Positions 46,275 through 63,882 of a DNA stretch of 64,000 nucleotides are shown piece by piece. Numbering within the stretch: position 1 is the first letter of the stretch; every line of letters starts with the position of its first letter. A model generated the notes under the pieces. That model searched no databases. It was given only the letters and a program-made list of their open reading frames with translations, and was not told the origin of the DNA. The position numbers were made by a program, and so were the translations under genes. The DNA is from Loktanella sp. (GTDB taxonomy: Bacteria; Pseudomonadota; Alphaproteobacteria; Rhodobacterales; Rhodobacteraceae): the NCBI GenBank assembly GCA_017390475.1, contig JAFPBO010000036.1, positions 1 through 64,000 of the forward strand, written 5' to 3'.

Positions 46275-46615
46275 TCTTTCGACACCATTTCGATTAAAGC
46301 GGCATCTGCTGAAGGATAAAGTCGAAAGACCTTATCCATCCGCGTTAATTGCATGAGCTGCGACACCGCACCAGATGCACCAGCAAGCGCCAAAACTCCC
46401 AAGGGACCGATTTTTTTCAATCCCCCAATCAAGGCGCCAAGTGCAGAACTATCCATGAATTTCACATGCTTCAGATCAAGAATAATCTGTTCCTGGCCAT
46501 TCTCTATCCGCCCAAGGAGCAACTCTCTCAGATCAGGGGCGTTGCTTGCCTCCAACCGCGGCTCTGCGATTTCAAGGACGAGAACAGCTCCTTCAAGTTT
46601 TTCTGAAAATTTCAT
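46271..46615 (-). CDS. STAS-domain anti-sigma factor antagonist
   Basis: A single STAS domain of 114 residues. VKFMDSSALGALIGGLKKIG (about 51-70) contains the serine that the partner kinase phosphorylates and the phosphatase restores. It lies 6 bp after the PP2C gene and overlaps the kinase gene by ATGA. Known relatives pass the phosphorylation state to a sigma factor or directly to an enzyme complex. Confidence 0.88.
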   Translation of the reverse strand: MKFSEKLEGAVLVLEIAEPRLEASNAPDLRELLLGRIENGQEQIILDLKHVKFMDSSALGALIGGLKKIGPLGVLALAGASGAVSQLMQLTRMDKVFRLYPSADAALIEMVSKE

Positions 46616-46621
46616 GATTGT

Positions 46622-48565
46622 TTATAACCTTTCGACCACCATGAGGCTGACGTCATCTGACAGATTGTCGATGCCGCTCCAAGCCTTCAACAGCTCACGA
46701 ACATTATGCACCAAGTTATTCGTGTCGCAAGCCACGTTGTCAGTCAGGAATTGAAGAAATCGTTCTTCAGTATATATCTCGTTGTTTTTGTTAGCATTCT
46801 CATATGCACCGTCTGTGAATATGATCAATCTGTCACCCGGGTGGAAGGGGAATTCAATCTCTTCAAACTCGGCGTCCGAGACCACCCCGACGGGCAGTCC
46901 TCCGTTCCCAAGACGGGTTAATGGCCCGTCTTTCTTAAGTAAAAGAGGATGTGGATGCCCAGCTTGCACCAGTTTGCCGGTGTTGGACGTGGCATCCAGC
47001 TCGGCCATGACCATTGTAAAGTAAGTCAGTTCCGAGTTCCAATGGGCGTTGAGGGTGCTCATAGCGTCAGCCAGGTTGATATGTGGCTTTAGGCTGCGCA
47101 AAGCTCTGCGCGCGGCGATCTGGGCGGCAACTGAGACCAAACCAGCAGCGGCGCCGTGGCCGGCGACATCAATCTGGAACAACCCGACGCGGTTCTCTGA
47201 AAGCCGAAAATGATCGAATGTGTCCCCAGCCAACATCTTTGACGGTTCGAAGAATGTCGAAAAGTAAAAGTCCGCGATCTTCCCCGGTCTCGGTAACAGC
47301 GCTAGCTGCACTTGCGCTGCCGACTTCATATCTGATTGAAGCATCTGATGTGTTTCAGATATCTGTGCGTATAATTTGAGCTGTGTATGCCTAGAGCGAT
47401 CCCGTTGAACTTCTGCAATCCGAAAGACTCTGAGCGCATCTGCAATCGCATGAATGTCTTTCAGTAAGAAGTCGCCCTTGGCGAAGGGTTTCAGATTACC
47501 GTCAACGATGTTCTGCATCCTGCCGCGCAGTTCATCGAGCGGTGAGACAATGTGCCTGACAATAAAGAAAAGAGAAAATCCAAGCGTAAGGAACACAAAA
47601 AACGAGATGGCCAAAGATCTTCGCAACGTCGAAAGCGCATCATTGCGGTCACTGGTGAGGGTCATCTGAGACCGCTCAAAGATCGAAACAAGCGCGTTCT
47701 CAATGAGCTGATCGACCTGTTCCGTTGCACCAAGCCACGCGTCCTGCACCGCTTCCAACTCGGCCGATGTTTCCAACCCAAGAAGCAATCTGTCCTGTGC
47801 TGGAACGTAGAAGGTGGTGAGAGTGTCTGACAGACTCTCCGCTGACCTCCGAATGTCATCATCAACCAACTCAACAACATTGGAATACATGATATCAAAA
47901 GCTAACAAAGATTGCGTTTGGTCTCTGATGTTTTCAATTCCGCGGGCCCGCAAACCAATATCTTCTTGTAGCTCTTGCAGAATACCTACCCGGATATCAT
48001 GAAAGTAGCTGTTTACTGTCACAACGTAAGTGCGCACCAAATGCAGGCTTGCCATGGTCGTGGTAGTGAACCCGGCTTCTTGAAGCAGGGCCTGTCGAAT
48101 ATCCAATAGTCTGTTTCGAACAAGGTCCAGTTTTGCCAGTAGCTGAAAAAGTTGAACTGACTGAATGTCACGATCCTGCAATGCAACGGTGTTTGCAAAC
48201 TCAGCAGCGTAAAGAGATATGATATCGACTTCGCGAAGTAGTGCCGCACTCAATCTACGCAGTTCCACATCGCCGGTTTCATTCAGAACCCGGGCCACAT
48301 TCCGTAGCTGATCAGCTGCTGCATTCAATATGACATCTGACGAAGAAAATTCAGATACAGCGCTACCAAGCTGGGCGATCTTGTAGCTATCATCCTGAAG
48401 TCGGACAGTCGCGGCCAACAATGAATTTCGCGCAGAATCAATCGTCAGCTGTTCCGAGACCCGTTGATAATTTTTGTATGCAACGGTGCCTTGAGACCAA
48501 GAAAACAAAACCAGCGACAAGCTAAAAAACGCCAGTACCACTGAAAGAGCGTTACGAATATTCAT
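46622..48565 (-). CDS. Membrane PP2C/SpoIIE-type phosphatase with sensor and HAMP domain
   Basis: Input protein of the partner-switching module, 647 residues. It has an N-terminal membrane segment (about 6-25), a long helical periplasmic sensor (about 30-310), a second membrane segment (about 313-335), a HAMP region, and a SpoIIE/PP2C domain (about 420-645) with QIDVAGHGAAAGLVS, IIFTDGAYE and LSDDVSLMV, which hold the metal-binding aspartates. It should dephosphorylate the STAS protein when the sensor is active. First gene of the three-gene operon. Confidence 0.88.
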   Translation of the reverse strand: MNIRNALSVVLAFFSLSLVLFSWSQGTVAYKNYQRVSEQLTIDSARNSLLAATVRLQDDSYKIAQLGSAVSEFSSSDVILNAAADQLRNVARVLNETGDVELRRLSAALLREVDIISLYAAEFANTVALQDRDIQSVQLFQLLAKLDLVRNRLLDIRQALLQEAGFTTTTMASLHLVRTYVVTVNSYFHDIRVGILQELQEDIGLRARGIENIRDQTQSLLAFDIMYSNVVELVDDDIRRSAESLSDTLTTFYVPAQDRLLLGLETSAELEAVQDAWLGATEQVDQLIENALVSIFERSQMTLTSDRNDALSTLRRSLAISFFVFLTLGFSLFFIVRHIVSPLDELRGRMQNIVDGNLKPFAKGDFLLKDIHAIADALRVFRIAEVQRDRSRHTQLKLYAQISETHQMLQSDMKSAAQVQLALLPRPGKIADFYFSTFFEPSKMLAGDTFDHFRLSENRVGLFQIDVAGHGAAAGLVSVAAQIAARRALRSLKPHINLADAMSTLNAHWNSELTYFTMVMAELDATSNTGKLVQAGHPHPLLLKKDGPLTRLGNGGLPVGVVSDAEFEEIEFPFHPGDRLIIFTDGAYENANKNNEIYTEERFLQFLTDNVACDTNNLVHNVRELLKAWSGIDNLSDDVSLMVVERL

Positions 48566-48723
48566 AAAATTTTGCTAACCGTATATTCTAAATTTTACGT
48601 TTGCTGCTGAAACTCTTACCGTGCTCACTTTCAAATCGTGGTGTCGATGACATCACTTGTGACGTTGTAAGCTTAACCCGCAGAGCGGTTTTCGTCTCCC
48701 ATATTTTAAAAAGTAACTAATTT

Positions 48724-49236
48724 TCAATCATTCTGGACAAGCTGTTCGACCATTATCTGAACGGCTTGGTCTGCGTAATCCGTCAGCTCGGCCATATCAC
48801 CGCGGCTAAAGTCTGCCCGTGGGTTGCTATCCAGCAGACAGAAAGCTCCGAGGTGAACGTCGGTAAGGTAGGTTAAAGGCGCACCGGCGTAAAAGCGGAT
48901 GAACGGGTCATTTTTCGTGTAGGGATGCTCGTTGAACCGTTCGTCATTGAGGGTGTCCAAAACAACAAAAACCCTGTCCTCAAGGATGGTGTAGTTACAG
49001 AATGCAAGGTTGCGTGGTGTCTGATCCACATCAATTCCGATCCGGGACTTCAGTACCTGGATATCCTTGGTCAGCAATGTCACAGCTGCCATTGAGGTCC
49101 CAAAATGGGCTTTTGCTTCTATACACAGCTCATCCAAAGCCGGTATCTTGACGGAAGAGGCAAAGCCCGCTTCAGCAAGCTTTCGTAGTCTTGTATCTTC
49201 TCGCGGTCCCAGTGGCGGTATGATATCGTCGTCCAA
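48724..49236 (-). CDS. GAF-domain protein
   Basis: A 170-residue protein that is almost entirely one GAF domain (about 25-165), with SRIGIDVDQTPRNLAFCNYTI, FIRFYAGAPL (about 123-132) and LGAFCLLD. No output domain is attached. It is divergent from the GH5 gene and lies behind the phosphatase gene, so it may feed signals into the same system. Its ligand is unknown. Confidence 0.8.
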   Translation of the reverse strand: MDDDIIPPLGPREDTRLRKLAEAGFASSVKIPALDELCIEAKAHFGTSMAAVTLLTKDIQVLKSRIGIDVDQTPRNLAFCNYTILEDRVFVVLDTLNDERFNEHPYTKNDPFIRFYAGAPLTYLTDVHLGAFCLLDSNPRADFSRGDMAELTDYADQAVQIMVEQLVQND

Positions 49237-51251: not shown

Positions 51252-53714
51252 TTATCGGATTTGCTTCATCCTAGACGCGTCTGTCAACAATACAGGTGTG
51301 GCTGGTTTGCCCGCCGACAACGTCGCATCATCGCTGCCTAGCACAAGAAGTGTATACCGCATGATCCCGGCGCGGTAGCTTTCGGTCAGTGCATTGCCAC
51401 CGATCATGTTGTCGAAAAACGGCTGACCAGACAGCCCGGCCCTGTCCGCAAGCGGGCCAATCACGCGCAAGGCATGGTCACGCCACCGGTTCAACCGCAG
51501 CAGGGGTGTCAAGTCCGCAGTGTCCAGATGAACATATCCAAGTGCTTGCGCCTGCAAAATGAGCCCGTCCCGCGTTGGCACATGACCAAGCCGCCAACCG
51601 CGCCGGAAGGCGGCAATCAGGTGTGACTGTGCTTGTGTCAGCCGCGCATCGGGATGTGAAAGCAGATCATCGACCACGATCAACACACCGCCGGGGCGGA
51701 GATGGCGACGCGCAGCGGTCAGAAATGTGGCCGCATCCGGTGCGTGGACATGGCTTTCGACGGCGATGACGAGATCAGCGCCAGATACTTTCATGGGCTG
51801 TGTGAAGTCTGCGCAGAGAAATTGACATCGGGCGTCCAACCCGCTGCCTGCGGCAAATTTGCGGGCAAGTGCTATCTGTTCTGCGCTGATGGTCACGCCG
51901 CAAAATGTGGCCTTCGGCCACCGGCGGGCAAGCTGAAAAACCGTGCCCCCAACCCCGCAGCCCAGATCATGGACACGCGATGGCGGTTGGCCGATTGCCT
52001 GTTCAGCAGCCAGCGCGATCAATGTATTGACATGACCTGCGGCTTGTTCGGCGTTTGTTACCCCTTCAGCCCAAAGCGGGCGGTGGATCGCCAATGCGGC
52101 ACCGCTGCCGCCGGTTGCAAGAAACCGCCGCGTGCTGGCATTGTAATAATCCGCAACGGTATTGGCGGCACGGGGGCGGTCAAACCACCGATAAAGCAAA
52201 GGGGCAACGACCAAGGGCAGCACGATCGGCATTACCAACAGCCCTGACAGCAGCGCATTGGTGCTGGTGCCAATCAGCGCTTGTGGCAGTGTCACCGCCA
52301 GAAGAATGCCCATGCCGACACTGCTTTCCATCCATCCGGCTGGACCCAAACCGCCAGCGCTCTGCCCCGACGGGACCCAACCGCTGGTCCGCCCCACCAG
52401 GACAGACACCACGAACCCCGTTCGCCGGACCATGCTAATCGGGGCAAACAATGTCGTCAGTGCAAGCTCTGCCGTGAAGGCCCGCTGCAAGACACGCTTT
52501 TGGTTTGCAGAGCGGTACTTTATCCCGCGTGCTCGTAGCCCCGCAAATTTCGGCATCAGTAGCGCCAAAAGCACCCCGAACAGAGGAATGAGTACGCCCG
52601 CCGTTGCATGCACCGCACCTGAACCCGTCAGCACAACCAACGTCAGCCAGATGGGTGCGGACAGATAAGATTGAATACCAGCGATCAGATGCATCCGGCT
52701 GACCGCATAAAGACCACGCGCACCGACCAGCCGCAGATGCTGCAAATTGCCCTGTGCCCATCGCCGGTCGCGCCGCAAATGCGCCCCGATGGTTTCGGGC
52801 GCATCCTCGAAACTGCCTTTGCCGGACGGGTCGATGACGACCTTCCATCCGGCCCGGCGCAAGAAAGCGGCCTCGACAAAATCGTGGCTCAGGATAGGTC
52901 CGCCGAATGGGGGAGGCCCAGACAAGACCGGCAGCGGCGTCACTTGTTGAAATGCGGTGACACGGATCAGCGCATTATGGCCCCAATAGTTCCCGTTGTC
53001 GCCTGTCAATGCGGCCATGCCACGCTCGAACACAGGGCCGGATATGCGTGCGGACAGGCGCTGCATCTGGCCAAAACGGGTTTGCGAGGGGCGCAGACGG
53101 ATGGCCGATTGAATCAATCCCAGCCTGTCATCTGCCGCCACGCGTGCCCGCATGCTGGCAAGCCGCCGGGCGCTGAAACCGCTGTCGGCATCCAGAACCA
53201 ACATTGAATCGAACTGCGCACCATGCGCTGTCAGCCAATCGCCTATGTTGCCGTTCTTGCGCCCTGTTGGCTCTGGCCGGTTGCGATAGATGATACGGCC
53301 ATCAAGCCGCGCCAGCGCCGCTGCTTCTTGTTGTCGTTCCACTTTGCCTTGGGTATCAGACAGCACAAACACAGTCGCGTGGGGTGTCAGGTTATATGCT
53401 TCCTGATCATCGAGGAACTGGCTGATCCGTCGCGCCAACGGTCCTGGGGGTTCGCCGCAGACAAGCCACAGGACTGCGCATCTATCGGTCAGCTGTTCTG
53501 TCGGATCATCCGGCGCCTGCGCCACTGTTGCGCCAATGATCGCAATTCCTGCCGCAGAAATCAGAGTATAGGTGCTAATGCCGAACAGAACCAGAAGAAC
53601 GGCCGCCAGTGCAGGCGCGGTGGCGGTGGTATCTAGGCCGAGCCACAGCAGAACAGTCATCAACGCTGTCAGCAATGCCGATATTACGATATGCGCAAGC
53701 GGGGCCTGAAACAT
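51252..53714 (-). CDS. OpgH-like glycosyltransferase fused to a SAM methyltransferase
   Basis: An 820-residue fusion. Two membrane segments (about 7-27, 35-60) are followed by a GT2 domain like the OpgH/MdoH glucosyltransferase: LDADSG (174-179), GHNALIRVTAF (about 245-255), SHDFVEAAFLRRAGW (276-290) and RRDRRWAQGN (314-323). More membrane segments follow at about 350-505. Residues about 515-800 form a methyltransferase with motif I HDLGCGVGG (582-590). OpgH alone does not carry such a domain. It ends a six-gene operon with RibA and RibD-like genes, so it may glycosylate and methylate a lipid or a GTP-derived product at the membrane. The function is not established. Confidence 0.85.
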   Translation of the reverse strand: MFQAPLAHIVISALLTALMTVLLWLGLDTTATAPALAAVLLVLFGISTYTLISAAGIAIIGATVAQAPDDPTEQLTDRCAVLWLVCGEPPGPLARRISQFLDDQEAYNLTPHATVFVLSDTQGKVERQQEAAALARLDGRIIYRNRPEPTGRKNGNIGDWLTAHGAQFDSMLVLDADSGFSARRLASMRARVAADDRLGLIQSAIRLRPSQTRFGQMQRLSARISGPVFERGMAALTGDNGNYWGHNALIRVTAFQQVTPLPVLSGPPPFGGPILSHDFVEAAFLRRAGWKVVIDPSGKGSFEDAPETIGAHLRRDRRWAQGNLQHLRLVGARGLYAVSRMHLIAGIQSYLSAPIWLTLVVLTGSGAVHATAGVLIPLFGVLLALLMPKFAGLRARGIKYRSANQKRVLQRAFTAELALTTLFAPISMVRRTGFVVSVLVGRTSGWVPSGQSAGGLGPAGWMESSVGMGILLAVTLPQALIGTSTNALLSGLLVMPIVLPLVVAPLLYRWFDRPRAANTVADYYNASTRRFLATGGSGAALAIHRPLWAEGVTNAEQAAGHVNTLIALAAEQAIGQPPSRVHDLGCGVGGTVFQLARRWPKATFCGVTISAEQIALARKFAAGSGLDARCQFLCADFTQPMKVSGADLVIAVESHVHAPDAATFLTAARRHLRPGGVLIVVDDLLSHPDARLTQAQSHLIAAFRRGWRLGHVPTRDGLILQAQALGYVHLDTADLTPLLRLNRWRDHALRVIGPLADRAGLSGQPFFDNMIGGNALTESYRAGIMRYTLLVLGSDDATLSAGKPATPVLLTDASRMKQIR

Positions 53715-53726
53715 CGGCGTCTGCGT

Positions 53727-54539
53727 CTAAGTCACGGTATGCGGCGGGATGGTCGCGGCATGGGCGGCTTCTGTCAGCCCGCAATCAAAAACGACGTCCG
53801 TGCCAAGCCCGAACACGCGTGTATCGGGCCGTAGACAATCAGCCAGCCTGGCATGCTGAACATTGCGGGTCAGCGCGATTGGTCCGCTACCGATGACCAA
53901 AGGTGACACTGCGACCTGCAGCCGAACAAGCGTGTCGGCATCAAGGAAATTGGCAATCGTGATCCCGCCGCCTTCGATGAGAAGGCTATTCAACCCGGCC
54001 TCGCGCAAGCCTTGCAAGATCTCCCTCGGGTCGAACTTGCCGTCAATCAGTTGCAGCTGCAACACTTCGACATGGGCCGGACGCGGTTGTTTCACAGCCT
54101 GAATGATCATGCTGCGTGTGCCATCTTCCCGCAGGATGGGTGCATCATCCGCCAATCGACCTTTGGGATCAATCACGATCCGCGCCGGGCTTTGGCCTGA
54201 GCAAAGCCGGACAGTCAGGCGGGGAAGGTCGTGAAGCGCCGTGCCAATACCGATGACGACACCATCCACCAAGGCCCGCATCCGGTGCAGATGTGCGTGG
54301 CCGTCAGGGCCAGATACGTCGCTTGCATCACCCGCGAGGGTAGCAACCCGGCCATCAAGTGACTGCCCAATCTGAGCCACAACTGCCGGTCCCAGATCGC
54401 GGCGCGCCAGAGGCGCGTAAAGATCCAGTGCGCCACGCTCGCCTGTCGACCAAGGCCCACCGCAACATGCGCAGGCTTTGCCCGCACGAATAGCTAGAAG
54501 ATGGTCCCAGACCCTGTCGGTGACATCCACATTCTGCAT
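53727..54539 (-). CDS. RibD C-terminal reductase-domain protein (no deaminase)
   Basis: A 270-residue protein with the dihydrofolate-reductase-like RibD reductase fold: QIGQSLDGRVA (about 57-67), GIGTALHDLPRLTVR (about 96-110) and LLIEGGG (about 186-192). The first 45 residues contain a cysteine-rich CACCGG but no cytidine-deaminase zinc motif. Reductase-only versions act on the diamino-ribosylamino-pyrimidine made by GTP cyclohydrolase II in archaea and fungi, which would fit the ribA gene of the same operon. It lies 12 bp before the glycosyltransferase fusion. Confidence 0.83.
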   Translation of the reverse strand: MQNVDVTDRVWDHLLAIRAGKACACCGGPWSTGERGALDLYAPLARRDLGPAVVAQIGQSLDGRVATLAGDASDVSGPDGHAHLHRMRALVDGVVIGIGTALHDLPRLTVRLCSGQSPARIVIDPKGRLADDAPILREDGTRSMIIQAVKQPRPAHVEVLQLQLIDGKFDPREILQGLREAGLNSLLIEGGGITIANFLDADTLVRLQVAVSPLVIGSGPIALTRNVQHARLADCLRPDTRVFGLGTDVVFDCGLTEAAHAATIPPHTVT

Positions 54540-54559
54540 TCATTCACTCCTGTTAGGCA

Positions 54560-55333
54560 TCACTGGTAGCCGGGCGGCAGGGCCAGAAAATCCCGATGTC
54601 CGATGTGGCAATGGCCGTCCCCGACAAGGGCGTGCCGCCGTGCCGCCCATTGCTGTGCGCCCGCGATGCCCATCTCCGCTGCGGCATTGGCGATACCGGC
54701 GCATAATTGTTGTTGCAGCTCAGCCTGATCGGGGCCAAGCACCCAGACGCTGTCAGCCTGGGTCACTGTGAATCCAGCTTTGGCAAACACATCAGCAGCG
54801 CTGCTCGCGCAGTCAGGCCCAAGCGCTGGCCCGAACCCTTTGTCGCCGCGTTGGTGGCGGTTGAATGCTGCGGTAATCGTTTCGTCGTCATCGTCAGGTG
54901 ACGTCCATGTCATCACACCGTCGTAGTTCAGCGCGGCATAGAACGCGACCGGTTGTTCTGTAAGACGGGCAGCCAATCGCGTCAGCCAATCGCGAGAACA
55001 CAGGTCCAGCAAGGCCGATGCTGTCACAAGGCTCGCCCCCTGCAACGGCAGGGCGGCGAGTGTTCTGAGGTCAAGTCTATGCAGCGCAACTTCTGGCCCG
55101 GCACTCAACGCGGCCTGCGCCAGAAGTGCAGGATCGCTATCAACCAAGCGCCATGCGGCAGTCCCGCCAAGCACCGGCGCAAAAGCTCGTAACGTCGAAC
55201 CCGTGCCTGACCCAAGATCAACGATCACTGGCAATGGACCGGCGGCTCTCACCGCTGCGGCCAGCAAGCCATCATCGCGTGCGGCAAGGTCTGCCGGTTC
55301 ACGCAGGGCCAGCCATGAGGCAGTAAACCCCAT
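54560..55333 (-). CDS. Class I SAM-dependent methyltransferase
   Basis: A 257-residue Rossmann methyltransferase: motif I VDLGSGTGS (about 38-46), LVDSDPALLAQA for the acidic ribose-binding loop, and ASALLDLCS as motif IV region. The substrate cannot be read from the sequence. It is 3 bp after the PTPS-like gene and 20 bp before the reductase gene, so it is part of one transcription unit and probably methylates the pathway intermediate. Confidence 0.82.
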   Translation of the reverse strand: MGFTASWLALREPADLAARDDGLLAAAVRAAGPLPVIVDLGSGTGSTLRAFAPVLGGTAAWRLVDSDPALLAQAALSAGPEVALHRLDLRTLAALPLQGASLVTASALLDLCSRDWLTRLAARLTEQPVAFYAALNYDGVMTWTSPDDDDETITAAFNRHQRGDKGFGPALGPDCASSAADVFAKAGFTVTQADSVWVLGPDQAELQQQLCAGIANAAAEMGIAGAQQWAARRHALVGDGHCHIGHRDFLALPPGYQ

Positions 55334-55336
55334 TGA

Positions 55337-55732
55337 TCAGATCTCTGCCTCGAACCAGCCGCGCGCCAGATGGCTTTCATGCAGCGTGATTCGCAAACGC
55401 TTGACGCGACCTGCATCCTTCAGTTCGCCCGCCCGGACCTTTTCGGCCAAAGTCCGGAAGACATGGCCGGACAAAAATTCAGTTGTCGTGAAAATGCCCT
55501 TGAACTGGCTTTCATCATCAAGGTTTTTATAGCGCAATGGTTCCAGAACCTGTGCCAATGCGTCAATCGCCAAACCGATATCAACAACCAGCCCGTGTTC
55601 ATCGATGTCATTAGCGAAAAACGCCGCATCCACGGTGAAGGTGGCACCATGCACGCCCTGTGCCGGCCCAAAAAGTGGCGACGGGAAAGAGTGAGCAATC
55701 ATGATGTGGTCACGAACTTCTACAGCGTACAT
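55337..55732 (-). CDS. PTPS/QueD-fold protein with altered active site
   Basis: A 131-residue protein of the 6-pyruvoyl-tetrahydropterin synthase fold. The first zinc histidine (H14, in IMIAHSF) and the HG pair (H28) are present, but the HGH motif reads HGA (A30), the catalytic cysteine position is A24 and the DHHYLND segment reads LRYKNLDD. The glutamate in LHES (E119) remains. It therefore is unlikely to do the classical PTPS or QueD reaction. It lies in the RibA-RibD operon, where a modified reaction on a GTP-derived pterin, or a binding role, is plausible. Confidence 0.8.
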   Translation of the reverse strand: MYAVEVRDHIMIAHSFPSPLFGPAQGVHGATFTVDAAFFANDIDEHGLVVDIGLAIDALAQVLEPLRYKNLDDESQFKGIFTTTEFLSGHVFRTLAEKVRAGELKDAGRVKRLRITLHESHLARGWFEAEI

Positions 55733-55775
55733 TTGGGGTCCTTTAGATTACTGGGGAGGGGACAGAGAGCATCGA

Positions 55776-56720
55776 TCAATATCTGATCCGGTGACACAGC
55801 GTATCAGGGTCGGCGAGGATGTCGGCATAGTGGTCCGGCAGATGTGCGAACGCAGTTTCGCCCGAAATCAAGGCGTCAAGGCGGTCGTCACACAGCAGAT
55901 CCAACGCTTTTGCCATGCGTCTGGCATAAGACCAGCGCGGCAGGCGGTCAGGCGGCAGATGACCCACCTGCGATGCGATCAGGCGCAGACGGCGGCTGTG
56001 AAACGCACCGCCCAATGCGACAGGGATGGTTTTGTCGCCATACCAGCTTGCCTCGACAATCGTGGCATTGTTCCCGGCAATCGACAGGCCAAGCGCCAGT
56101 CCCGCAGGATTTGCGCTGGCATGGATCACGACATCGCAATCGTGCTGGGCGGTATCCGGTGCAGCAAAGCCAACCCCCAAAGTCGCTGCCAGTTTTGCCC
56201 GCGCAGGGTTGATGTCAATCAGAACCACCTCTGCGCCCGGCATCCGTGCAGCAAGATACCCGACAAGCGCGCCGACGACACCCGCGCCGATCACGGCGAT
56301 CCTGTCGCCTGCGCCTGCGCCGCTGTCCCAAAGGATGTTCAGTGCAGTTTCCATGTTGGCCCCAAGAACAGCCCGTTGCGCAGGCAAGCCATCGGGAAGG
56401 ATATTGAGGTTTTCCTGCGCCAGCCGGAAATGGGTCTGATGTGGAAACAGGCTGAACACATGCTGCCCCGCCAGCGGACCGTCCTGCACTTCGCCGACGT
56501 TGCAATATCCGTATTTCACCGGAAACGGGAACGCGCCTTCCATGTTGGGGCCGGTCATCCTGTCATATTCTGATACCGGCACGCTACCTTCGGATACCAA
56601 CCGTTCTGTGCCGCGGCTGATCGCCGAAAACAGCGTCGTGACAGGCACACCGGTGCTGGTCAGCGCGGGCCGGATTTCAACCTGTCCGGGTCCCACGAAC
56701 CAGAGTGCCTCTGCGCTCAT
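55776..56720 (-). CDS. Alcohol-dehydrogenase-family oxidoreductase, BchC-like
   Basis: Medium-chain dehydrogenase of 314 residues. The Rossmann motif is VIGAGVVGALVG (about 142-153), with VLIDINPARA as the second strand. The N-terminal ISRGTERLVSEGSVP segment and the absence of the four-cysteine structural zinc site resemble BchC-type enzymes of this family. It overlaps the ribA stop by ATGA. The substrate is unknown; a hydroxyl group in a side chain of a pterin or sugar is possible. Confidence 0.8.
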   Translation of the reverse strand: MSAEALWFVGPGQVEIRPALTSTGVPVTTLFSAISRGTERLVSEGSVPVSEYDRMTGPNMEGAFPFPVKYGYCNVGEVQDGPLAGQHVFSLFPHQTHFRLAQENLNILPDGLPAQRAVLGANMETALNILWDSGAGAGDRIAVIGAGVVGALVGYLAARMPGAEVVLIDINPARAKLAATLGVGFAAPDTAQHDCDVVIHASANPAGLALGLSIAGNNATIVEASWYGDKTIPVALGGAFHSRRLRLIASQVGHLPPDRLPRWSYARRMAKALDLLCDDRLDALISGETAFAHLPDHYADILADPDTLCHRIRY

Positions 56721-57853
56721 GTCAACAGGTGTCCCGACTTTACCGCCTTGGTTGTCAGATAGCGGGTATTCTGCACGGTCTTGCCGACCTGCAATGGTAC
56801 TCTTTGCGTCACATCAATGCCTTGCGCCTTCAGTATCGCCATTTTGGCGGGGTTGTTCGTCAGCAGCCGAACGGCGCCGATCCCCAGTTGTTTCAAAATC
56901 GCTGCGCCATTGCGGAAATCACGTTCATCGTCATTGAAACCAAGGTGGTTATTGGCGTCGACCGTGTCAAAACCCTGATCCTGCAACGCGTAGGCCCGCA
57001 TCTTGTTGGCCATACCGATCCCGCGACCTTCCTGATTCAGATACAGCAATACACCGCCGCCTGCCGCCGCCATTGTCGTACAGGTCGTCTGCAGTTGTGC
57101 GCCACAATCACATTTCAGGCTGCCCAGAACGTCACCAGTGAAACAGGCCGAATGAAGCCGCGTCAGAACGGGTTGGGACAGGTCAGGGCTGCCGATCTCG
57201 ATGGCGTAATGTTCGATGCCACCATCGTCTGGCCGGAAAACGTGCACGCGCCCAGCGGCATGAGCCGACATCGGCAGGCTCGCCGAGGAGACCAACGCCT
57301 GAAAACGCTCTGCCGAAAGTTCAGCGACAACGTCCGTGGCTTCGACGAGACATAGCTCATTGTCGCGGGCAAAGGCATGGCCATCGTCGATAGCAACGAC
57401 CAGCGCAGCGGGTAGAAGCTGCGCTGATTTGGCCAGTGCGATGGCGGCGTCATGTATCGGATCGGATGATCTCGGATCAGCAGCGTGTTTGGGCAACTCG
57501 GACGGTTGGGCAGGGTCCGCCAGGGAAATGAGCCAATCCAGCCCGGCATCTTGCGGCAGCGTCATCGCCACCACAGAACTGCCGGTCTTGTGCCCTTCGA
57601 CGGCAAGTGCATCTGCCCGGTGCCGCGTCAGCAGCAATTGCGCTTGCTGCGCGCCCCCTGTCAGCGCTGTGAAACGCGCATCCGTCAGCGTTTCAACCGC
57701 GACCATCGCGACAAATGCGCCTTGATACGACAAAATGACAGGTACGCCGATCCTGACGTCGCCTCTGGCCCGCATGACGCGTTCCATGCTGCACGGCGAA
57801 ATCGCAGAAGCCAGCGGGTCTTGGGTTCCAAAGGCAGGTTTCAGATTATTCAT
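56717..57853 (-). CDS. ribA: GTP cyclohydrolase II (RibA)
   Basis: Opens GTP to formate and 2,5-diamino-6-ribosylamino-pyrimidinone phosphate. The 378-residue protein has a degenerate N-terminal DHBP-synthase-like region (about 20-190) and the cyclohydrolase domain with HSACFTGDVLGSLKCDCGAQL-type zinc cysteines (about 231-250), YLNQEGRGIGM (about 270-280) and NNHLGF. The ATG at 57853 follows GGGAG and is preferred over the longer frame. It is the first gene of the operon; the rest of the riboflavin genes are absent, so it probably serves another pathway. Confidence 0.9.
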   Translation of the reverse strand: MNNLKPAFGTQDPLASAISPCSMERVMRARGDVRIGVPVILSYQGAFVAMVAVETLTDARFTALTGGAQQAQLLLTRHRADALAVEGHKTGSSVVAMTLPQDAGLDWLISLADPAQPSELPKHAADPRSSDPIHDAAIALAKSAQLLPAALVVAIDDGHAFARDNELCLVEATDVVAELSAERFQALVSSASLPMSAHAAGRVHVFRPDDGGIEHYAIEIGSPDLSQPVLTRLHSACFTGDVLGSLKCDCGAQLQTTCTTMAAAGGGVLLYLNQEGRGIGMANKMRAYALQDQGFDTVDANNHLGFNDDERDFRNGAAILKQLGIGAVRLLTNNPAKMAILKAQGIDVTQRVPLQVGKTVQNTRYLTTKAVKSGHLLT

Positions 57854-58017
57854 GATGCTCCCAGAAAAACGTCCCAAGGAGTTTAGCGCGCCACTGCGAA
57901 GGGCAAGCTGCCACATGTCTTTGCGGGCATTGTTCGATGCACGATAGCGATTTTATTCGCCACACATGAAATTTGCTTTAGATATAACGCGCTGCGTCGT
58001 TTTGGCGCTTTTGTTAA
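57854..58017. promoter_or_regulatory. Divergent promoter region between ribA and fkbM-type gene
   Basis: A 164-bp gap between two divergently transcribed genes, so it must hold two promoters. No confident -35/-10 pair or palindrome was found. Confidence 0.35.
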
Positions 58018-58782
58018 GTGAATAAGATTGGAATACCGGTTTTGACCATTGGAAAGTGGCTTGGATTTTTCCGCTCGGTTGTGATTTATCACAATCCTGT
58101 GAATTCGGCCCCGATACGCAAGTTTTACCGCAATCTTCTGAAACCGGGTGACCTTGCTTTTGATGTGGGTGCCCATGTTGGCACGCGCGCCCGCGCAATG
58201 CGGGCCGCTGGCGCACGGGTTGTTGCGCTTGAACCGCAGGCACCATTTTCGACCTATCTGCGTCTGACATTGCCGCGCGATGTCCGACTGGTCGAAGCGG
58301 CCGCAGGGGGCAGCCAGTCAACCGCGCAGATGGCCGTATCATCGCGTCATCCCACCGTGTCGTCGCTCAAGCCCGGATTTGTGGCGGCGGCGGGGGCCGC
58401 ACCCGGTTTTGAAATGGTGAAATGGGACACGGTGCAGAATGTGCAGGTGACAACGCTGGACGCGCTCATCGCAGAGGAAGGCGTGCCGCGCTACATCAAG
58501 ATCGATGTCGAGGGTTTCGAGCTTGATGTCCTGGCTGGCCTGTCGCAGCCCGTTGCGATTATCTCGGTGGAATATCTGCCGGGATTGCCAGATCTGACAA
58601 ACGCGGTGATCGACCGGTTACTGGAACTGGGGCCGTATCAGTTCAACCCCGTGCGCGGTGAGGAAGGTGAATTCCTATGGGAACAATGGGCTGACGCCGC
58701 GACTGCCAGACACTGGCTTGCCAGCCTTTCCGCTGACGACAAATCAGGTGACCTTTACGCCATGTTGCCGGATTCCGCCTGA
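58018..58782 (+). CDS. FkbM-family methyltransferase
   Basis: SAM-dependent methyltransferase, 254 residues. DVGAHVGTRARAM (about 47-59) is motif I, VVALEPQAPF (about 68-77) the acidic loop, and RYIKIDVEGFELDVLAGL (about 158-175) the FkbM signature. Such enzymes often O-methylate sugars or lipids. The start is a GTG at 58018 with only a weak ribosome site, so the N-terminus is uncertain. It converges with the inositol-monophosphatase-like gene, overlapping it by 28 bp. Confidence 0.82.
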   Translation: MNKIGIPVLTIGKWLGFFRSVVIYHNPVNSAPIRKFYRNLLKPGDLAFDVGAHVGTRARAMRAAGARVVALEPQAPFSTYLRLTLPRDVRLVEAAAGGSQSTAQMAVSSRHPTVSSLKPGFVAAAGAAPGFEMVKWDTVQNVQVTTLDALIAEEGVPRYIKIDVEGFELDVLAGLSQPVAIISVEYLPGLPDLTNAVIDRLLELGPYQFNPVRGEEGEFLWEQWADAATARHWLASLSADDKSGDLYAMLPDSA

Positions 58783-59564
58783 CCGCGCAGCGCTTCGGTA
58801 AAGGCAGCGAACAAAGGTTCTGGCGCGGCCAGAACCGTGCCGGAAACCTCTGGCTGATCGTCCTTGTCAAACGCGGTGACATGCGCCCCTGCCTCGCGCA
58901 GGATCACAAGGCCAGCGGCTATATCCCACTGCTGCAGGCGGCGTTCCCAGAACCCGTCCAGCCGCCCCGCCGCCACATAGGCCAGATCAAGCGCGGCTGC
59001 CCCCATACGGCGCACACCGGCGCAATGTGGCATCAGATTGGCGATATCAGCGGCATGTGCGTCGATGTCCTTCATGCCACCAAACGGGATACCCGTACCA
59101 AACAGCGCATCCGACAGCTGTGTCGTATCGGATACCACAATCGCCGATCCGTTCAGAAAAGCACCCCCGCCAAGGATCGCTGTGAATGTTTCACCCTTCA
59201 GAGGGTCATGGATTACGCCCAAGCGGCGGGTTCCGTCTACTTCAAGTGCGATGGAAATGGCCCAATGCGGGATGCCGCGCAGAAAATTTGTCGTGCCGTC
59301 CAAAGGATCAACGATCCAGCGCCGGGACGATTGGTGAGAGGCCGGCGTTTCCTCGCCAAGCCAGCCATCATCTGGACGCGCGGTCAGCAGCAGGTCGCGC
59401 AGGCACATTTCTGACGCAACATCAGCCTGCGACACGAAATCACCTGCGCGTTTGTTGCTGACGGTCAGCGATGTTTTGTCGTGCCAATACCGGGTCAGAA
59501 TGTCGCCAGCGGCCTGCGCCGCCGCAACTGCAAGATCCATATCGGGCAAATCCTGCGCATTCAT
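58755..59564 (-). CDS. Inositol-monophosphatase-family phosphatase
   Basis: A 269-residue metal-dependent phosphatase. GWLGEETP (about 72-79), WIVDPLDGTTNFLRGIPHWA (about 88-107) and the C-terminal WDIAAGLVILREAGAHVT (about 218-235) give all metal ligands of the family. It overlaps the upstream glycosyltransferase gene by ATGA. The substrate may be inositol phosphate, histidinol phosphate or a sugar phosphate; the operon suggests a sugar or polyol phosphate of the neighbouring cluster. Confidence 0.88.
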   Translation of the reverse strand: MNAQDLPDMDLAVAAAQAAGDILTRYWHDKTSLTVSNKRAGDFVSQADVASEMCLRDLLLTARPDDGWLGEETPASHQSSRRWIVDPLDGTTNFLRGIPHWAISIALEVDGTRRLGVIHDPLKGETFTAILGGGAFLNGSAIVVSDTTQLSDALFGTGIPFGGMKDIDAHAADIANLMPHCAGVRRMGAAALDLAYVAAGRLDGFWERRLQQWDIAAGLVILREAGAHVTAFDKDDQPEVSGTVLAAPEPLFAAFTEALRGQAESGNMA

Positions 59565-60625
59565 ATCGCCACCTGTGCTGCATCAATAGCCTGCATAGCG
59601 ACGCGTGCTGTGTCTTGCCAGGTTGGCAATGCCTTGCCAGCCACTCGCGCTGCATTGTGCATTTCGGTGGCAATGGCTTTGTCGGTCAAAACCTTTGCCA
59701 TGGCAGCGCCAAATGCCGCAGGATCATCACAAGCGGTCAGCAGACCGGCAGCTTGCGGCACCGTGTCCGGCACCGCCCCCGTGGCACAGGACACGATCGG
59801 CAAGCCGTGAAGCAATGCTTCGTTGAATACCATGCCGTAGCCTTCGTATCGCGTCGCCAGCGCAAACAAGCTGGCCTGTTGATAGAGTGTTAATAGCGTG
59901 TCCGAGTCCACACGCCCCGCTAAATGAACACGCCCGGTCAGCCCCAGCTGGTCGATCCGGTCTTGCAAGGCGACATCATACCCGTCTTGCCAAAGGCTAC
60001 CGACAATGCAGGCATTCCATTCCAGCTGTGCAATCCGGTCAAGCGCATCAATCAACACATCATGGCCTTTGCGCGGATGCAAAATCCCGACCGACAGGAT
60101 CAACGGCACAGCCGGGGGCGGTACACTGGCTGCATTCTGCGGCAGTTGCGCGATACCGGGCAGGGCGATGTGGATACGGTCTGCGCCAACCCCGTAATGT
60201 TTGATCAGCGTTGCTTTGGTATGGGGGCTTGGGACCAGGACCTGCGCGGCATAGCGCAGATTTTCACGTTCATTCAGCAACAGCTGCGCCTGCTGATCCT
60301 TTGGCAACGCACTTTCGAAAGCAAGTGGATGATGCACTAGCGCGATGATCCGGGCATTGATCTTTGCCACCTCTTGCGGCGGCAGCGCGCCAAAGGCCAG
60401 ACCGTCGACAATGACTGTCGTTGCTGCTGGCAAGGTCTGCAATTGTTCGCAGGCAAGCAACATATCGGCCGCTGGTGGAAAGGGGAAACCGTCTGGCAAC
60501 GTCACCAGTGTCACGTCCCGTCCTGCGTCGCGCAATTCCTGAAACAGGCGACGGTCGTAGATATAACCTCCTGTCAGGGTCGCTATGTCGCCCGGAACGG
60601 CCAAGGCAATCGGTGGCTGCGTCAT
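59561..60625 (-). CDS. Glycosyltransferase family 4
   Basis: GT-B fold glycosyltransferase, 354 residues from the ATG at 60625 (AGGGAA upstream); the N-terminal TGGYIYDRRLF resembles family 4 proteins. LHPRKGHDVLIDAL (about 184-197) and ATRYEGYGMVFNEALLHGLP (about 261-280), with the EX7E-type glutamates, form the nucleotide-sugar site. The only overlap is ATGA with the phosphatase gene downstream. It is divergent from the glpD region. With the fusion glycosyltransferase, this cluster has two sugar-transfer enzymes. Confidence 0.86.
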   Translation of the reverse strand: MTQPPIALAVPGDIATLTGGYIYDRRLFQELRDAGRDVTLVTLPDGFPFPPAADMLLACEQLQTLPAATTVIVDGLAFGALPPQEVAKINARIIALVHHPLAFESALPKDQQAQLLLNERENLRYAAQVLVPSPHTKATLIKHYGVGADRIHIALPGIAQLPQNAASVPPPAVPLILSVGILHPRKGHDVLIDALDRIAQLEWNACIVGSLWQDGYDVALQDRIDQLGLTGRVHLAGRVDSDTLLTLYQQASLFALATRYEGYGMVFNEALLHGLPIVSCATGAVPDTVPQAAGLLTACDDPAAFGAAMAKVLTDKAIATEMHNAARVAGKALPTWQDTARVAMQAIDAAQVAI

Positions 60626-61140
60626 GTGATATTCCCTGCGCCAGAATGGCGGAACGCCATATCTGATGCATCCATTTAGTCCGGAGGTCACTCTTGTCGA
60701 TTTGTTTCATCGCTGCGCAGATATCGCGCAGCGCATGACGAGGCAAAATAGCTTTTGGTCAGCACGATACATACGATCGCCCTTGCTGTAATACGACGAA
60801 TTATGAGGGCGGTGATACATCCGTCTCTGCTTTGCCAAAGGGCCATGGGGCTGTGTTGATGGCGCAGGATGATCCGGATATCGCACCACGTTTGTTGCCG
60901 TGATATGAGCCCATCCTTCACCGGGTGTATCAATTTTCGCAGCGCTGCCGAATCAGATGTCATAACTGCAATGTTCGTTTTGACAATATTCTGCATCGCA
61001 GCGAACAGATGGAGGGGAACAAAATAGAAACAAAGCGCTTTAATTTTTTCGTTTACAAAGAAACGAATATTTTTAACCCCTAAAACGAAAAAACTTGCGC
61101 ATCAACGCTGGTGCCGTCTAGCTTTTCCAACGACACAGTG
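60626..61140. other. Spacer between GT4 gene and glpD
   Basis: About 515 bases between divergent genes. A 102-residue minus-strand frame (60688-60996) has no recognisable domain and unusual composition, so I do not call it. The right end becomes AT-rich (61020-61105) and holds the palindrome at 61048-61067. The left part shows nothing I can support. Confidence 0.5.
61048..61067. promoter_or_regulatory. DeoR/GlpR-type operator upstream of glpD
   Basis: TTCGTTT (61048-61054) and AAACGAA (61061-61067) form a perfect 7-bp inverted repeat with a 6-bp spacer. Another AAACGAAA half-site follows at about 61083-61090. TTTCGTTT/AAACGAAA repeats are typical of DeoR-family GlpR operators, fitting the glp operon downstream. 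Confidence 0.7.
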
Positions 61141-62769
61141 ATGACCCTGACGGACAGAACAATCATGCCACAATCTGCGCAAAATCTATCAGCGACACAG
61201 CACGTGCATGACTTGCTTGTGATCGGTGGCGGCATCAATGGCTGCGGCATTGCGCGCGATGCTGTGGGGCGTGGGTTGTCGGTGGTGCTGGCGGAAAAGG
61301 GCGATTTGGCGGGGGCGACGTCATCCTCGTCAACCAAGCTGTTTCATGGTGGTCTGCGCTATCTGGAATATTTCGAATTCCGGCTGGTCCGCGAGGCATT
61401 GATCGAACGCGAGACACTGCTGCGCGCGATGCCGCACATTTCCTGGCCGATGCGTTTTGTGCTGCCTTATCATAAGGATATGCGGTTCGACAGCGACACG
61501 CCAACGTCGCGCTTGCTGGGGATTTTCATGCCCTGGATGAAGGGGCGCAGACCAGCCTGGCTGATCCGACTGGGCCTGTTCCTTTACGATAATCTGGGTG
61601 GTCGCAAGATTCTGCCCGGCACGGCGACGCTCGCGCTGGATGGCAATGAAGGCACACCGCTGCATGATCGTTTTGCCAAAGCCTATGAATATTCCGACGC
61701 ATGGGTCGAGGATTCACGCCTTGTCGTGCTGAACGCCCGCGATGCCGAGGCGCGCGGTGCGACGATCATGACCAGGTCAGAGGTTGCGTCGGCCGCTGTC
61801 GTCGATGGCATCTGGCATGCCACGATCCGGACCGATAACGGCGAAAAGACAATTGCAGCGAAGATGCTGGTCAATGCCGCAGGTCCTTGGGTCGGTGATA
61901 TCATTCACGGCAAGCTGCGCCTGAACAGCCGCGAGGATGTGCGGCTGGTGCGTGGCAGCCATATCGTGACGCGCAAGCTTTATGATCACGATAAATGCTA
62001 TTTCTTCCAAGGTACCGACGGACGGATCATTTTCGCCATTCCCTATGAGCAGGATTTCACCCTGATCGGCACGACCGATGCGGAACATGATGATCCTAAC
62101 GTCAAACCCGTCTGCACGGATGAAGAACGGGATTACTTGTGCAATTTCGCCAGCCAGTATTTCAAACAACCCGTCACGACAGATGATATCGTCTGGACCT
62201 ACTCCGGTGTGCGTCCGTTGTATGATGATGGTGCCAGTTCCGCGACGGCGGCGACCCGTGACTACACCTTGAAGGTTGATAAATCTGCCGGTGCGCCGGT
62301 GCTCAATATCTTTGGTGGCAAGATCACGACCTATCGGCGGCTGGCGGAATCAGCGCTCGAAAAGATCGGTGCGGTGCTGCCGCTGGACAAAGGCAAATGG
62401 ACCGCAGGGGTGGCCTTGCCGGGGGGAGATTTTCCACATGACGGTGTGGTTGCACTCGTGGAGGGATTGCAGCGTGACTACCCGTTTCTGTCCGATTTCT
62501 GGGCGCGCCGCTTGGTCCGCGCTTATGGGACAGAAGGCCGCGCTATTCTGGGCGACGCCAAAACCGCTGCCGATCTGGGCCGCGATTTCGGATCGACCCT
62601 GACCGAGGCCGAGGTCAACTGGCTGATCACCCGCGAATATGCCCGCAGTGCCGAGGATATTCTTTGGCGACGGTCAAAACTCGGGCTGCGGCTCGACAAG
62701 GATCAGGTGGCGGTTCTGGAGGAGTGGATCGCCAACCATGCAAAGGAAGTCATCCGCGCCGCTGAATAG
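61141..62769 (+). CDS. glpD: Aerobic glycerol-3-phosphate dehydrogenase
   Basis: FAD enzyme that oxidises glycerol-3-phosphate to dihydroxyacetone phosphate and passes electrons to quinone. The FAD-binding motif LVIGGGINGCGIARDA follows the start by about 25 residues; TSSSSTKLFHGGLRYLEYFEF, VNAAGPWVGD and GTTDAEHDDP are typical GlpD segments. The start is placed at the ATG at 61141 (543 residues); 61165 is an alternative, and both lack a strong ribosome site. It begins the glp operon, followed after 24 bp by glpS. Confidence 0.93.
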   Translation: MTLTDRTIMPQSAQNLSATQHVHDLLVIGGGINGCGIARDAVGRGLSVVLAEKGDLAGATSSSSTKLFHGGLRYLEYFEFRLVREALIERETLLRAMPHISWPMRFVLPYHKDMRFDSDTPTSRLLGIFMPWMKGRRPAWLIRLGLFLYDNLGGRKILPGTATLALDGNEGTPLHDRFAKAYEYSDAWVEDSRLVVLNARDAEARGATIMTRSEVASAAVVDGIWHATIRTDNGEKTIAAKMLVNAAGPWVGDIIHGKLRLNSREDVRLVRGSHIVTRKLYDHDKCYFFQGTDGRIIFAIPYEQDFTLIGTTDAEHDDPNVKPVCTDEERDYLCNFASQYFKQPVTTDDIVWTYSGVRPLYDDGASSATAATRDYTLKVDKSAGAPVLNIFGGKITTYRRLAESALEKIGAVLPLDKGKWTAGVALPGGDFPHDGVVALVEGLQRDYPFLSDFWARRLVRAYGTEGRAILGDAKTAADLGRDFGSTLTEAEVNWLITREYARSAEDILWRRSKLGLRLDKDQVAVLEEWIANHAKEVIRAAE

Positions 62770-62793
62770 CAGCGCAATTTGGGAGGAGAAAAT

Positions 62794-63882
62794 ATGTCGC
62801 TCGTCTTGGACGGGGTCAGTAAGGTGGTGGATGGTCAAAACCATATCTACCCGACTGACCTGACGCTGGAACGTGGCACGATGAACGTGCTGTTGGGGCC
62901 GACCCTGTCGGGTAAAACCACGCTGATGCGCCTGATGGCCGGGCTGGATGTGCCTGCAACCGGGCGTATCCTGTGGGAAGATCGCGATGTCACCGGTATG
63001 CGCGTACAGGACCGCAAGGTCGCGATGGTTTACCAGCAATTCATCAATTACCCGTCGATGAGCGTCTATGACAATATCGCCTCTCCCTTGAAACTGATAG
63101 GGCTGAACCGGGCCGAGATTGACCGCAAAGTCCGCGAAACCGCTGATCTGATGCAATTGGGTTCGATGCTGGACCGCAAGCCGCTGGAATTGTCGGGCGG
63201 CCAGCAGCAACGCTGTGCACTGGCGCGCGCCTTGGTCAAAGATGCGGGGCTGGTGTTGCTGGACGAACCGCTGGCGAACCTTGATTATAAACTGCGCGAG
63301 GAATTGCGCGCCGAAATCCCCCGGATATTCGAAGAATCCGGTGCGATTTTCGTCTACGCCACGACAGAACCGGAAGAAGCCTTGTTGCTGGGCGGCAATG
63401 TCGCGACCATGTGGGAAGGCAAAATCACCCAATTCGGCCCGACCCCATCGGTTTATCGCCAGCCCAAAGATGCGACCACCGCACGGGTGTTTTCCGACCC
63501 GCCGATGAACTTCACCAAGATCGTCAAAGCAGGCAACGGGATCAGTTTTGGCGCGGGCCAGACGGCGGCCGCGACCGGCGCTTTTGCACAATTGCCCGAT
63601 GGCACCTATCGCGCGGGTTTCCGGCCTGACCATTTGCACCTGACAGCGCAGGCGCGGGACGGTCTGCAATTCGCCTGTACCTTGCGGGTGACGGAAATCA
63701 CCGGGTCGGAAACCTTTGTGCATCTGGATCATGCCGGCGACCGCTGGGTCGGGTTGATCCATGGTGTGCATCATCTGGAATTTGGGACGCCGATCCATGT
63801 TTGGCTGGACGCAGCGCATGTCTACGTCTTTTCCGAAACCGGCGAACTGATCGCCCCCGCGTCCTATGCGGCAGCGGCCTGA
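62794..63882 (+). CDS. glpS: Glycerol ABC importer ATP-binding protein GlpS
   Basis: ATPase of 362 residues, UgpC/MalK-like. Walker A is the unusual GPTLSGKTT (about 34-42), the signature ELSGGQQQRCALARAL (about 133-148) and Walker B LLDEPLANLD. The switch histidine is replaced: YATTEPEEAL instead of the usual THD, as in GlpS proteins of the GlpSTPQV glycerol importer. GGAGGAG precedes the ATG at 62794. A second, similar ATPase gene follows 10 bp later, matching the two-ATPase layout of that importer. Confidence 0.87.
   Translation: MSLVLDGVSKVVDGQNHIYPTDLTLERGTMNVLLGPTLSGKTTLMRLMAGLDVPATGRILWEDRDVTGMRVQDRKVAMVYQQFINYPSMSVYDNIASPLKLIGLNRAEIDRKVRETADLMQLGSMLDRKPLELSGGQQQRCALARALVKDAGLVLLDEPLANLDYKLREELRAEIPRIFEESGAIFVYATTEPEEALLLGGNVATMWEGKITQFGPTPSVYRQPKDATTARVFSDPPMNFTKIVKAGNGISFGAGQTAAATGAFAQLPDGTYRAGFRPDHLHLTAQARDGLQFACTLRVTEITGSETFVHLDHAGDRWVGLIHGVHHLEFGTPIHVWLDAAHVYVFSETGELIAPASYAAAA

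Follow-up and report, generated by a model that had tools for sequence, protein, structure and literature searches.

A conserved gene cluster around a PTPS-like protein in Loktanella sp., its possible GTP-derived product, and an importer alternative in relatives

The window, a stretch of 64,000 nucleotides from Loktanella sp. (GCA_017390475.1, contig JAFPBO010000036.1, positions 1–64,000 of the forward strand), carries at 51252..60625 a gene cluster that is described in no paper found by a literature search, most subscription journals being outside its reach. The committed core of this cluster consists of a dehydrogenase, a PTPS-like protein, a methyltransferase, and a GT4 glycosyltransferase, with GTP cyclohydrolase II (RibA) and a RibD-type reductase as frequent companions only. 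From gene content, conservation, co-occurrence, and residue patterns, there would seem to be about an even chance that the core makes a GTP-derived 2-amino-4-oxopyrimidine or pterin aglycone, which would be glycosylated and most likely put on the envelope, and that relatives import the aglycone.

The dehydrogenase was used as bait in a collection of species genomes, in which 337 relatives were confirmed; the loci compared are the best 80 of these, 67 of them with at least 9 kb on each side of the dehydrogenase. By dehydrogenase identity, the nearest fetched loci are those of a Loktanella metagenome-assembled genome (MAG; 89%) and of Yoonia vestfoldensis (78%). Scored by tblastn at E ≤ 1e-6, the PTPS-like protein is present in 79 loci, the methyltransferase in 78, the RibD reductase in 73, and GT4 in 64, followed by the FkbM-family methyltransferase (52), RibA (48), and the inositol-monophosphatase-family phosphatase (IMPase, 34). 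The MdoH-like GT2 glycosyltransferase of the window has a counterpart in only 12 loci, and the methyltransferase part fused to it in one. Wherever the PTPS-like protein and the methyltransferase are present, they are on the same strand as the dehydrogenase. The order of the genes differs between the loci of Rhodobacteraceae and those of Rhizobiaceae while their content is kept, and the conservation therefore exceeds shared synteny. An earlier account made from the letters of this DNA (the sequence-only reading) had left room for the set to prove unconserved in a search of neighbourhoods; with the PTPS-like protein and the methyltransferase in nearly all loci, this is not what is seen.

A second, less biased sample comprised 198 genomes drawn evenly across the family Rhodobacteraceae. 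E-value limits were fixed ahead of the searches (dehydrogenase 1e-20, PTPS-like protein 1e-15, GT4 1e-40, CDP-alcohol phosphotransferase 1e-15, sulfatase-like protein 1e-30, importer substrate-binding protein 1e-70), and the Fisher statistics given for co-occurrence in this sample ignore phylogeny. The dehydrogenase is found in 16 of these genomes and the PTPS-like protein in exactly the same 16. The association of dehydrogenase, PTPS-like protein, and methyltransferase is not due to chance. Nor is it confined to the Rhodobacteraceae, the family in which the sequence-only reading would have sought it and in which it is indeed conserved, as it extends to the Rhizobiaceae and beyond. Twenty plasmid records matched the PTPS-like protein and 11 of those regions were read; the core is present, whole or mostly, on plasmids of Methylosinus, Candidatus Thiodictyon (Gammaproteobacteria), Rhizobium, Microbacterium, and two Streptomyces. 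Reduced forms are seen in Rhodobacteraceae SC52, with the dehydrogenase, PTPS-like protein, methyltransferase, and RibD reductase, and in Arthrobacter, with the dehydrogenase, PTPS-like protein, and GT4.

The best solved relative of the PTPS-like protein is SCO6650 (3d7j), matched by phmmer at 2e-35 over residues 1–128 of 131 and by a profile at 2e-49, while true PTPS structures trail far behind (E 2e-5 to 5e-5). The protein is of the SCO6650 type, with similarity over its full length and the same altered motifs. The signatures of PTPS-I, -II, and -III are given, in an excerpt of PMC5041015, as CxxxHGH, CxxxxxHGH, or ExxHGH. All 80 PTPS-like sequences (79 loci and the window) have HGAT and none has HGH, and because the HGH signature is replaced in this way the protein stands outside PTPS classes I–III; the queuosine and folate enzymes of these classes are rejected by the motif, classes IV–VI lying outside the comparison. 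Where human PTPS has the DH of DHKNLD, the window protein has RY, of which the tyrosine is invariant and the arginine variable, and the cysteine of FGKC is matched by alanine. The sequence-only reading had called this an altered PTPS; the motifs of classes I–III are in fact absent. The C-terminal glutamate is invariant among 22 aligned PTPS-like sequences. In PTPS-type enzymes this glutamate anchors the 2-amino-4-oxo ring, and the PTPS-like protein may bind the same ring.

The window RibA keeps three zinc cysteines and the tyrosine of RAYALQ, residues presumed here to hold the metal and to act in catalysis, and it is by these features a GTP cyclohydrolase II. The RibD reductase passes PF01872 (111.8 against 24.1 bits), with no NCBIfam RibD model at cut-off, and among solved structures stand-alone reductases (2azn, 6p8c) are closest to it. 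Four of its solved matches, 6p8c, 4ha7, 9l1f, and 9l1h, bear names that give the undeaminated compound as substrate. A reductase with no deaminase would fit a product that retains its 2-amino group.

RibA and the RibD reductase domain belong to the families of the first step and the reduction step of the riboflavin pathway, but a scan of the nine cluster proteins with Pfam and NCBIfam found no RibE, RibH, RibB, or deaminase. The host has a riboflavin operon on another contig (C54), where the translations, read by eye, give nrdR-ribD(bifunctional)-ribE-ribBA-ribH-nusB; the cluster was rejected as a riboflavin operon, as the sequence-only reading had said, and its RibA and RibD reductase are extra copies. 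By eye, two capsule-export-like genes (KpsS/KpsC) are present between ribD and ribE on C54 (L104:10537-13873). Three RibA-domain matches are found in the host genome, in the window, on C54, and on C19, the last being 54% identical to the window RibA. The cyclohydrolase half of the RibBA on C54 (L104:8053-9225) is degenerate and has lost the zinc cysteines, so that the supply of riboflavin probably depends on a RibA outside the operon, the copy on C19 being the probable housekeeping cyclohydrolase. That the window copies are simply spare genes which raise the flavin supply might be argued from the canonical residues of the window RibA. With a riboflavin operon elsewhere, no remainder of the pathway among the nine proteins, and a set that travels with the PTPS-like protein, methyltransferase, GT4, and dehydrogenase across phyla, this is scarcely to be believed. 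In S. coelicolor, excerpts of PMC2853524 give an anticorrelation between SCO6655 expression and predicted flux (r = -0.61, riboflavin metabolism), which is a weak argument because the paralogue SCO2687 is listed also (r = -0.52).

Among 53 RibA sequences the RAYALQ position is tyrosine in 51, and methionine in that of the Streptomyces fungicidicus cluster, the remaining sequence being the degenerate RibBA. By eye, the RibA of the S. globisporus cluster also has methionine here, which makes two of two Streptomyces clusters, whereas the window RibA keeps the tyrosine. SCO6655 was reportedly found by Spoonamore in 2006 to carry this methionine and to halt at the formylamino intermediate (FAPy). 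In both Streptomyces clusters a creatininase-family gene adjoins RibA; no creatininase is present among the nine cluster proteins of the window. The creatininase of the Streptomyces cluster scores 218 bits against PF02633 but reaches just 37 of 180 against the ArfB model, and 141 of 172 against the mycofactocin MftE model. A member of the creatininase family, BrbF, is a proven deformylase of the formylamino intermediate (PMC9478397, in excerpt), and the two routes, by methionine-type RibA with a deformylase and by tyrosine-type RibA, would therefore converge on 2,5-diamino-6-ribosylaminopyrimidinone phosphate. Eleven plasmid records have a creatininase homologue, these two Streptomyces clusters (S. 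fungicidicus, S. globisporus) among them; five others were read and list no RibA nearby, and creatininase was rejected as a marker for the cluster in general. S. globisporus has a RibD reductase and S. fungicidicus has none in the stretch read.

The order in S. fungicidicus is PTPS, GT4, methyltransferase, flippase-like, creatininase, RibA, with RibA five genes from PTPS, as in the numbering from SCO6650 to SCO6655, which is named GTP cyclohydrolase II (PMC2853524, in excerpt). The S. coelicolor region is considered here by its gene numbers alone, and by that order SCO6652 would be the cluster methyltransferase. The excerpted table of PMC3610822, restricted to genes conserved in five Streptomyces, has SCO6652 up in the second mycelium by 4.3 log2 units at 48 h and by 4.1 at 72 h.

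A module of envelope genes first surfaced when neighbour genes were clustered across loci. Its members, with the number of the 80 loci that have each, are a CDP-alcohol phosphotransferase (58), a membrane protein of the sulfatase superfamily (54), a flippase-like protein of the LPG_synthase_TM type (49), and cytochrome b561 (39). The sequence DGxxAR(x8)GxxxDxxxD, which is taken here to be the CDP-alcohol phosphotransferase motif, is intact in 58 of 58, and no solved relative of the sulfatase-like protein was found at E ≤ 0.05 with a single-sequence query. The phosphotransferase and the sulfatase-like protein are found in the same 24 of the 198 family genomes, of which 7 also have the core where 1.9 would be expected (p = 9e-4). 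The module of the host is on contig C37, away from the window. By eye, Mu-like genes (transposase, ATPase, head protein) are present there between the EEP-phosphatase-like and cytochrome b561 genes (L101:1454-7672), and a sugar-type ABC transporter sits between the sulfatase-like and flippase-like genes.

As searched, the module is missing from 9 of the 16 core genomes, and 17 of the 24 module genomes have no core; it is therefore not dedicated to the product of the core, and since the two overlap yet often part, module and core are associated but separable. These counts tell against an envelope destination and could be explained if the core instead makes a soluble, secreted GTP-derived glycoside, such as a pigment, signal, or antimetabolite, the envelope genes being unrelated neighbours or export aids. 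The four genes standing together in SC52 are consistent with this, and the importer found in relatives (below) could scavenge such a glycoside. Unrelated neighbours would not, however, be expected to accompany the core as often as the CDP-alcohol phosphotransferase does (58 of 80 loci); this enzyme is also found beside it in Streptomyces, Microbacterium, and Thiodictyon, and the flippase-like protein is likewise within the clusters of Streptomyces and Microbacterium. A secreted glycoside is thus thought unlikely. The families do fit the GTP opening, reduction, oxidation, methylation, and glycosylation of the sequence-only reading, which saw neither the envelope module nor the importer alternative; together these two suggest an envelope conjugate, beyond a mere glycoside.

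All nine of the family genomes that have the core with no envelope module have an MdoH-like GT2 near the dehydrogenase. The glycosyltransferase half of the window fusion passes the MdoH model NF003962 (413.6 against 328 bits), the other eight MdoH models listed being below cut-off. On this evidence the cluster might be a locus for osmoregulated periplasmic glucans (OPG) or an exopolysaccharide, with the GT2 as its key enzyme. The window glycosyltransferase differs from MdoH/OpgH, however, in being fused to a methyltransferase and in lying away from opgG; the single MdoG match of the genome is a separate opgG on contig C39 with its own MdoH-like glycosyltransferase beside it, and the GT2 is present in just 12 of the 80 loci. 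An OPG locus was rejected as the principal explanation and is considered very improbable. Two relatives have the GT2-methyltransferase fusion near the envelope module, one with the core (L041) and one in a genome where the core is absent (L139). The fusion noted by the sequence-only reading does have both domains, but it is no part of the core; it and the local RibA are accessory.

GT4 is present in 31 of the 198 family genomes, and the substrate-binding protein (SBP) of an ABC importer in 16. All 16 importer genomes have GT4, as do 15 of the 16 core genomes, the exception being G194. The core or the importer SBP accompanies GT4 in 30 of its 31 genomes (Fisher p = 3e-33); in the last, G147 (73% complete), GT4 follows a fragment of the importer permease at the start of a contig. 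The weakest GT4 matches are near the limit (G008, 4e-42; G017, 1e-41). In 14 of the 16 SBP genomes GT4 stands next to the permease gene of the importer; in G048 and G125 it is on another contig. Among the 17 family genomes with the module and no core, 12 have the importer SBP; it is in the locus itself in 9 of the 12 module-without-core loci first fetched, and in most of those it lies between the flippase-like gene and GT4 or directly before GT4. In a tree of 90 sequences the GT4s of core and importer contexts intermingle. Individual genomes vary: the GT4 frame of G054 holds two TGAs, and in G118 the core contig has no GT4, which there ends the envelope module, with no importer. GT4 is therefore a hub that accompanies biosynthetic core and importer alike, and most simply its substrate would be a compound which some genomes make by way of the core and others import.

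The SBP is a member of the NMT1/THI5 family; among solved structures it is matched best by a formylaminopyrimidine-binding protein, 3ix1 (E 7e-12). In these two respects it resembles ThiY/THI5-like importers, but it differs from them in standing beside a cluster-type GT4 in 14 of 16 SBP genomes. Only G063 among the 198 genomes has both core and importer SBP, and there the SBP frame (C7:14469-15350) holds a TGA. No claim is made that core and importer exclude each other: the p of 9e-7 for this within the 31 GT4 genomes becomes p = 1 over all 198, and the former is discounted because conditioning on GT4 yields such a value if GT4 follows either.

The proposed pathway would begin with RibA, either local or housekeeping, opening GTP to 2,5-diamino-6-ribosylaminopyrimidinone 5'-phosphate; in Streptomyces the methionine variant would stop at the formylamino form, which the adjacent creatininase-family enzyme would deformylate. 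The RibD reductase, with no deaminase partner, would then make the ribityl form with the 2-amino group kept. The PTPS-fold protein, with its conserved C-terminal glutamate, would bind the 2-amino-4-oxo ring and perform no canonical PTPS chemistry. The dehydrogenase would oxidize an alcohol, the orphan methyltransferase would methylate, IMPase may remove a phosphate, possibly that of the ribityl or ribosyl group, and GT4 would add a sugar. Finally, in genomes that have them, the CDP-alcohol phosphotransferase, sulfatase-like, and flippase-like proteins and/or the MdoH-like GT2 would attach or move the product to a membrane lipid or periplasmic glycan. In relatives with GT4 and no core, the aglycone would be taken up by way of the THI5/ThiY-like ABC importer.

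Several further observations weigh against this pathway. Neither RibA nor the RibD reductase is universal. The 15 core-bearing family genomes besides that of the window have a local RibA in 3 and a local RibD reductase in 8, although 3 of the 15 loci end at contig boundaries, and the clusters of S. fungicidicus, Methylosinus, and Microbacterium each have one of the two missing nearby. At least two genomes, G017 and G194, hold one RibD_C protein only. The 80 loci, as the best-scoring of 337, are biased to close relatives, and the active-site residues were read from alignments alone. Three Streptomyces plasmids (L112, L113, L159) hold the PTPS homologue by itself, which is possibly a different use of the fold; these three have shared surroundings of MBL-fold hydrolase, cupin, sigma-70, and BTAD regulator genes. 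A Marinimicrobia MAG (L072) pairs creatininase with a tyrosine-type RibA, and among their listed genes the five plasmids read of the other nine with a creatininase show no RibA nearby. The best solved match of the RibD reductase, 2azn, is named for the deaminated substrate. For the importer, the NCBIfam models nearest to the SBP and permease are of sulfonate and Sao types, all far below cut-off, and NMT1-family SBPs have many ligands. Core and importer together are found in 1 genome against 1.3 expected over the 198 (p = 1).

The step of GTP opening that the sequence-only reading assigned to the local RibA is thus of the right family but optional at the locus, and housekeeping genes may supply RibA and the reductase where these are absent locally. 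At least one RibA-domain protein is kept elsewhere in all 19 searched genomes that have none at the locus. Of the genomes with no local RibD reductase, three (G101, G083, G122) encode a further strong RibD_C on a different contig or at a distance, while G162 and G008 have one RibD_C and a weak or different one; for G122 and G008 the assemblies are incomplete, and the loci break off where a contig ends. The scarcity of a local RibA (48 of 80 loci, and so few of the family genomes) and the loss of the PTPS catalytic residues could also mean that the PTPS-like and RibD-like enzymes were recruited to a sugar, polyol, or other non-GTP pathway, in which RibA is an occasional hitch-hiker. A hitch-hiker would not be expected to join the core in differing orders in Rhodobacteraceae, Rhizobiaceae, Streptomyces, and the Marinimicrobia MAG, nor to be accompanied by creatininase in Streptomyces. 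The RibA proteins elsewhere in the 19 genomes and the likeness of the importer SBP to THI5/ThiY are also more consistent with a GTP-derived compound, and a non-GTP pathway is judged rather unlikely.

The genes of the cluster are given in Table 1. As the sequence-only reading had it, all nine are in place, with frames open and intact, and the six on the minus strand between 57853 and 51252 are closely packed, at successive gaps of -4, 43, 3, 20, and 12 bp. The GT4 and IMPase genes overlap by 4 bp, and the plus-strand FkbM gene overlaps IMPase by 28 bp. The dehydrogenase, which had been called BchC-like, is a relative of BchC but a remote one; at 39.3 bits it is below the cut-off of 291 for NCBIfam TIGR01202 (bchC), and BchC identity was rejected. 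The 257 aa core methyltransferase has only weak solved relatives. No inverted repeats of at least 14 bases within 60 bases were found.

Table 1. Genes of the cluster in the window and their family matches (SAM, S-adenosylmethionine).
Product	Position	Strand	Family match
GT4 glycosyltransferase, 354 aa	59561..60625	-	PF00534 1.8e-27
Inositol-monophosphatase-family phosphatase (IMPase), 269 aa	58755..59564	-	PF00459 (Inositol_P) 1.2e-61
FkbM-family methyltransferase, 254 aa, GTG start	58018..58782	+	PF05050 8.9e-16
GTP cyclohydrolase II (RibA), 378 aa	56717..57853	-	PF00925 (GTP_cyclohydro2) 2e-56
MDR-type dehydrogenase, remote BchC relative, 314 aa; core	55776..56720	-	bchC 39 bits
PTPS-fold protein, SCO6650 type, 131 aa; core	55337..55732	-	PF01242 2.4e-18
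Class I SAM methyltransferase, 257 aa; core	54560..55333	-	PF13649 3.5e-6; no NCBIfam match
RibD C-terminal reductase without deaminase, 270 aa	53727..54539	-	PF01872 (RibD_C) 4.8e-32
MdoH/OpgH-like GT2 fused to SAM methyltransferase, 820 aa; accessory	51252..53714	-	NCBIfam NF003962

Read by eye, genes at 45828-49236 adjoining the cluster are anti-sigma kinase-like, STAS-like, HAMP/SpoIIE-phosphatase-like, and GAF-like, and may form a partner-switching set. On the other side, at 61111-63882, glpD-like and ugpC-like genes on the plus strand start just past GT4.

The cluster would give a context to SCO6650 and SCO6655, which are said to have been studied individually as orphan proteins, and it defines a testable pathway with a choice between making and importing the compound. 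A more specific proposal, possible though doubtful, is that these genes mark an unrecognized envelope conjugate present in several phyla, in which an undeaminated ribityl-pyrimidine or pterin head group, glycosylated by GT4, is carried on a lipid or periplasmic glycan and is made in some bacteria and scavenged in others through a dedicated THI5-like importer; on the same proposal cytochrome b561, so often a neighbour (39 of 80 loci), would make the conjugate a candidate membrane-bound redox cofactor. We know of no bacterium with such a GTP-derived envelope head group. If the product is indeed bound to the envelope it would be a head group of this kind, with a possible redox or light role. The link between GT4 and the importer would make the compound a bindable ligand, retrievable with the importer SBP.

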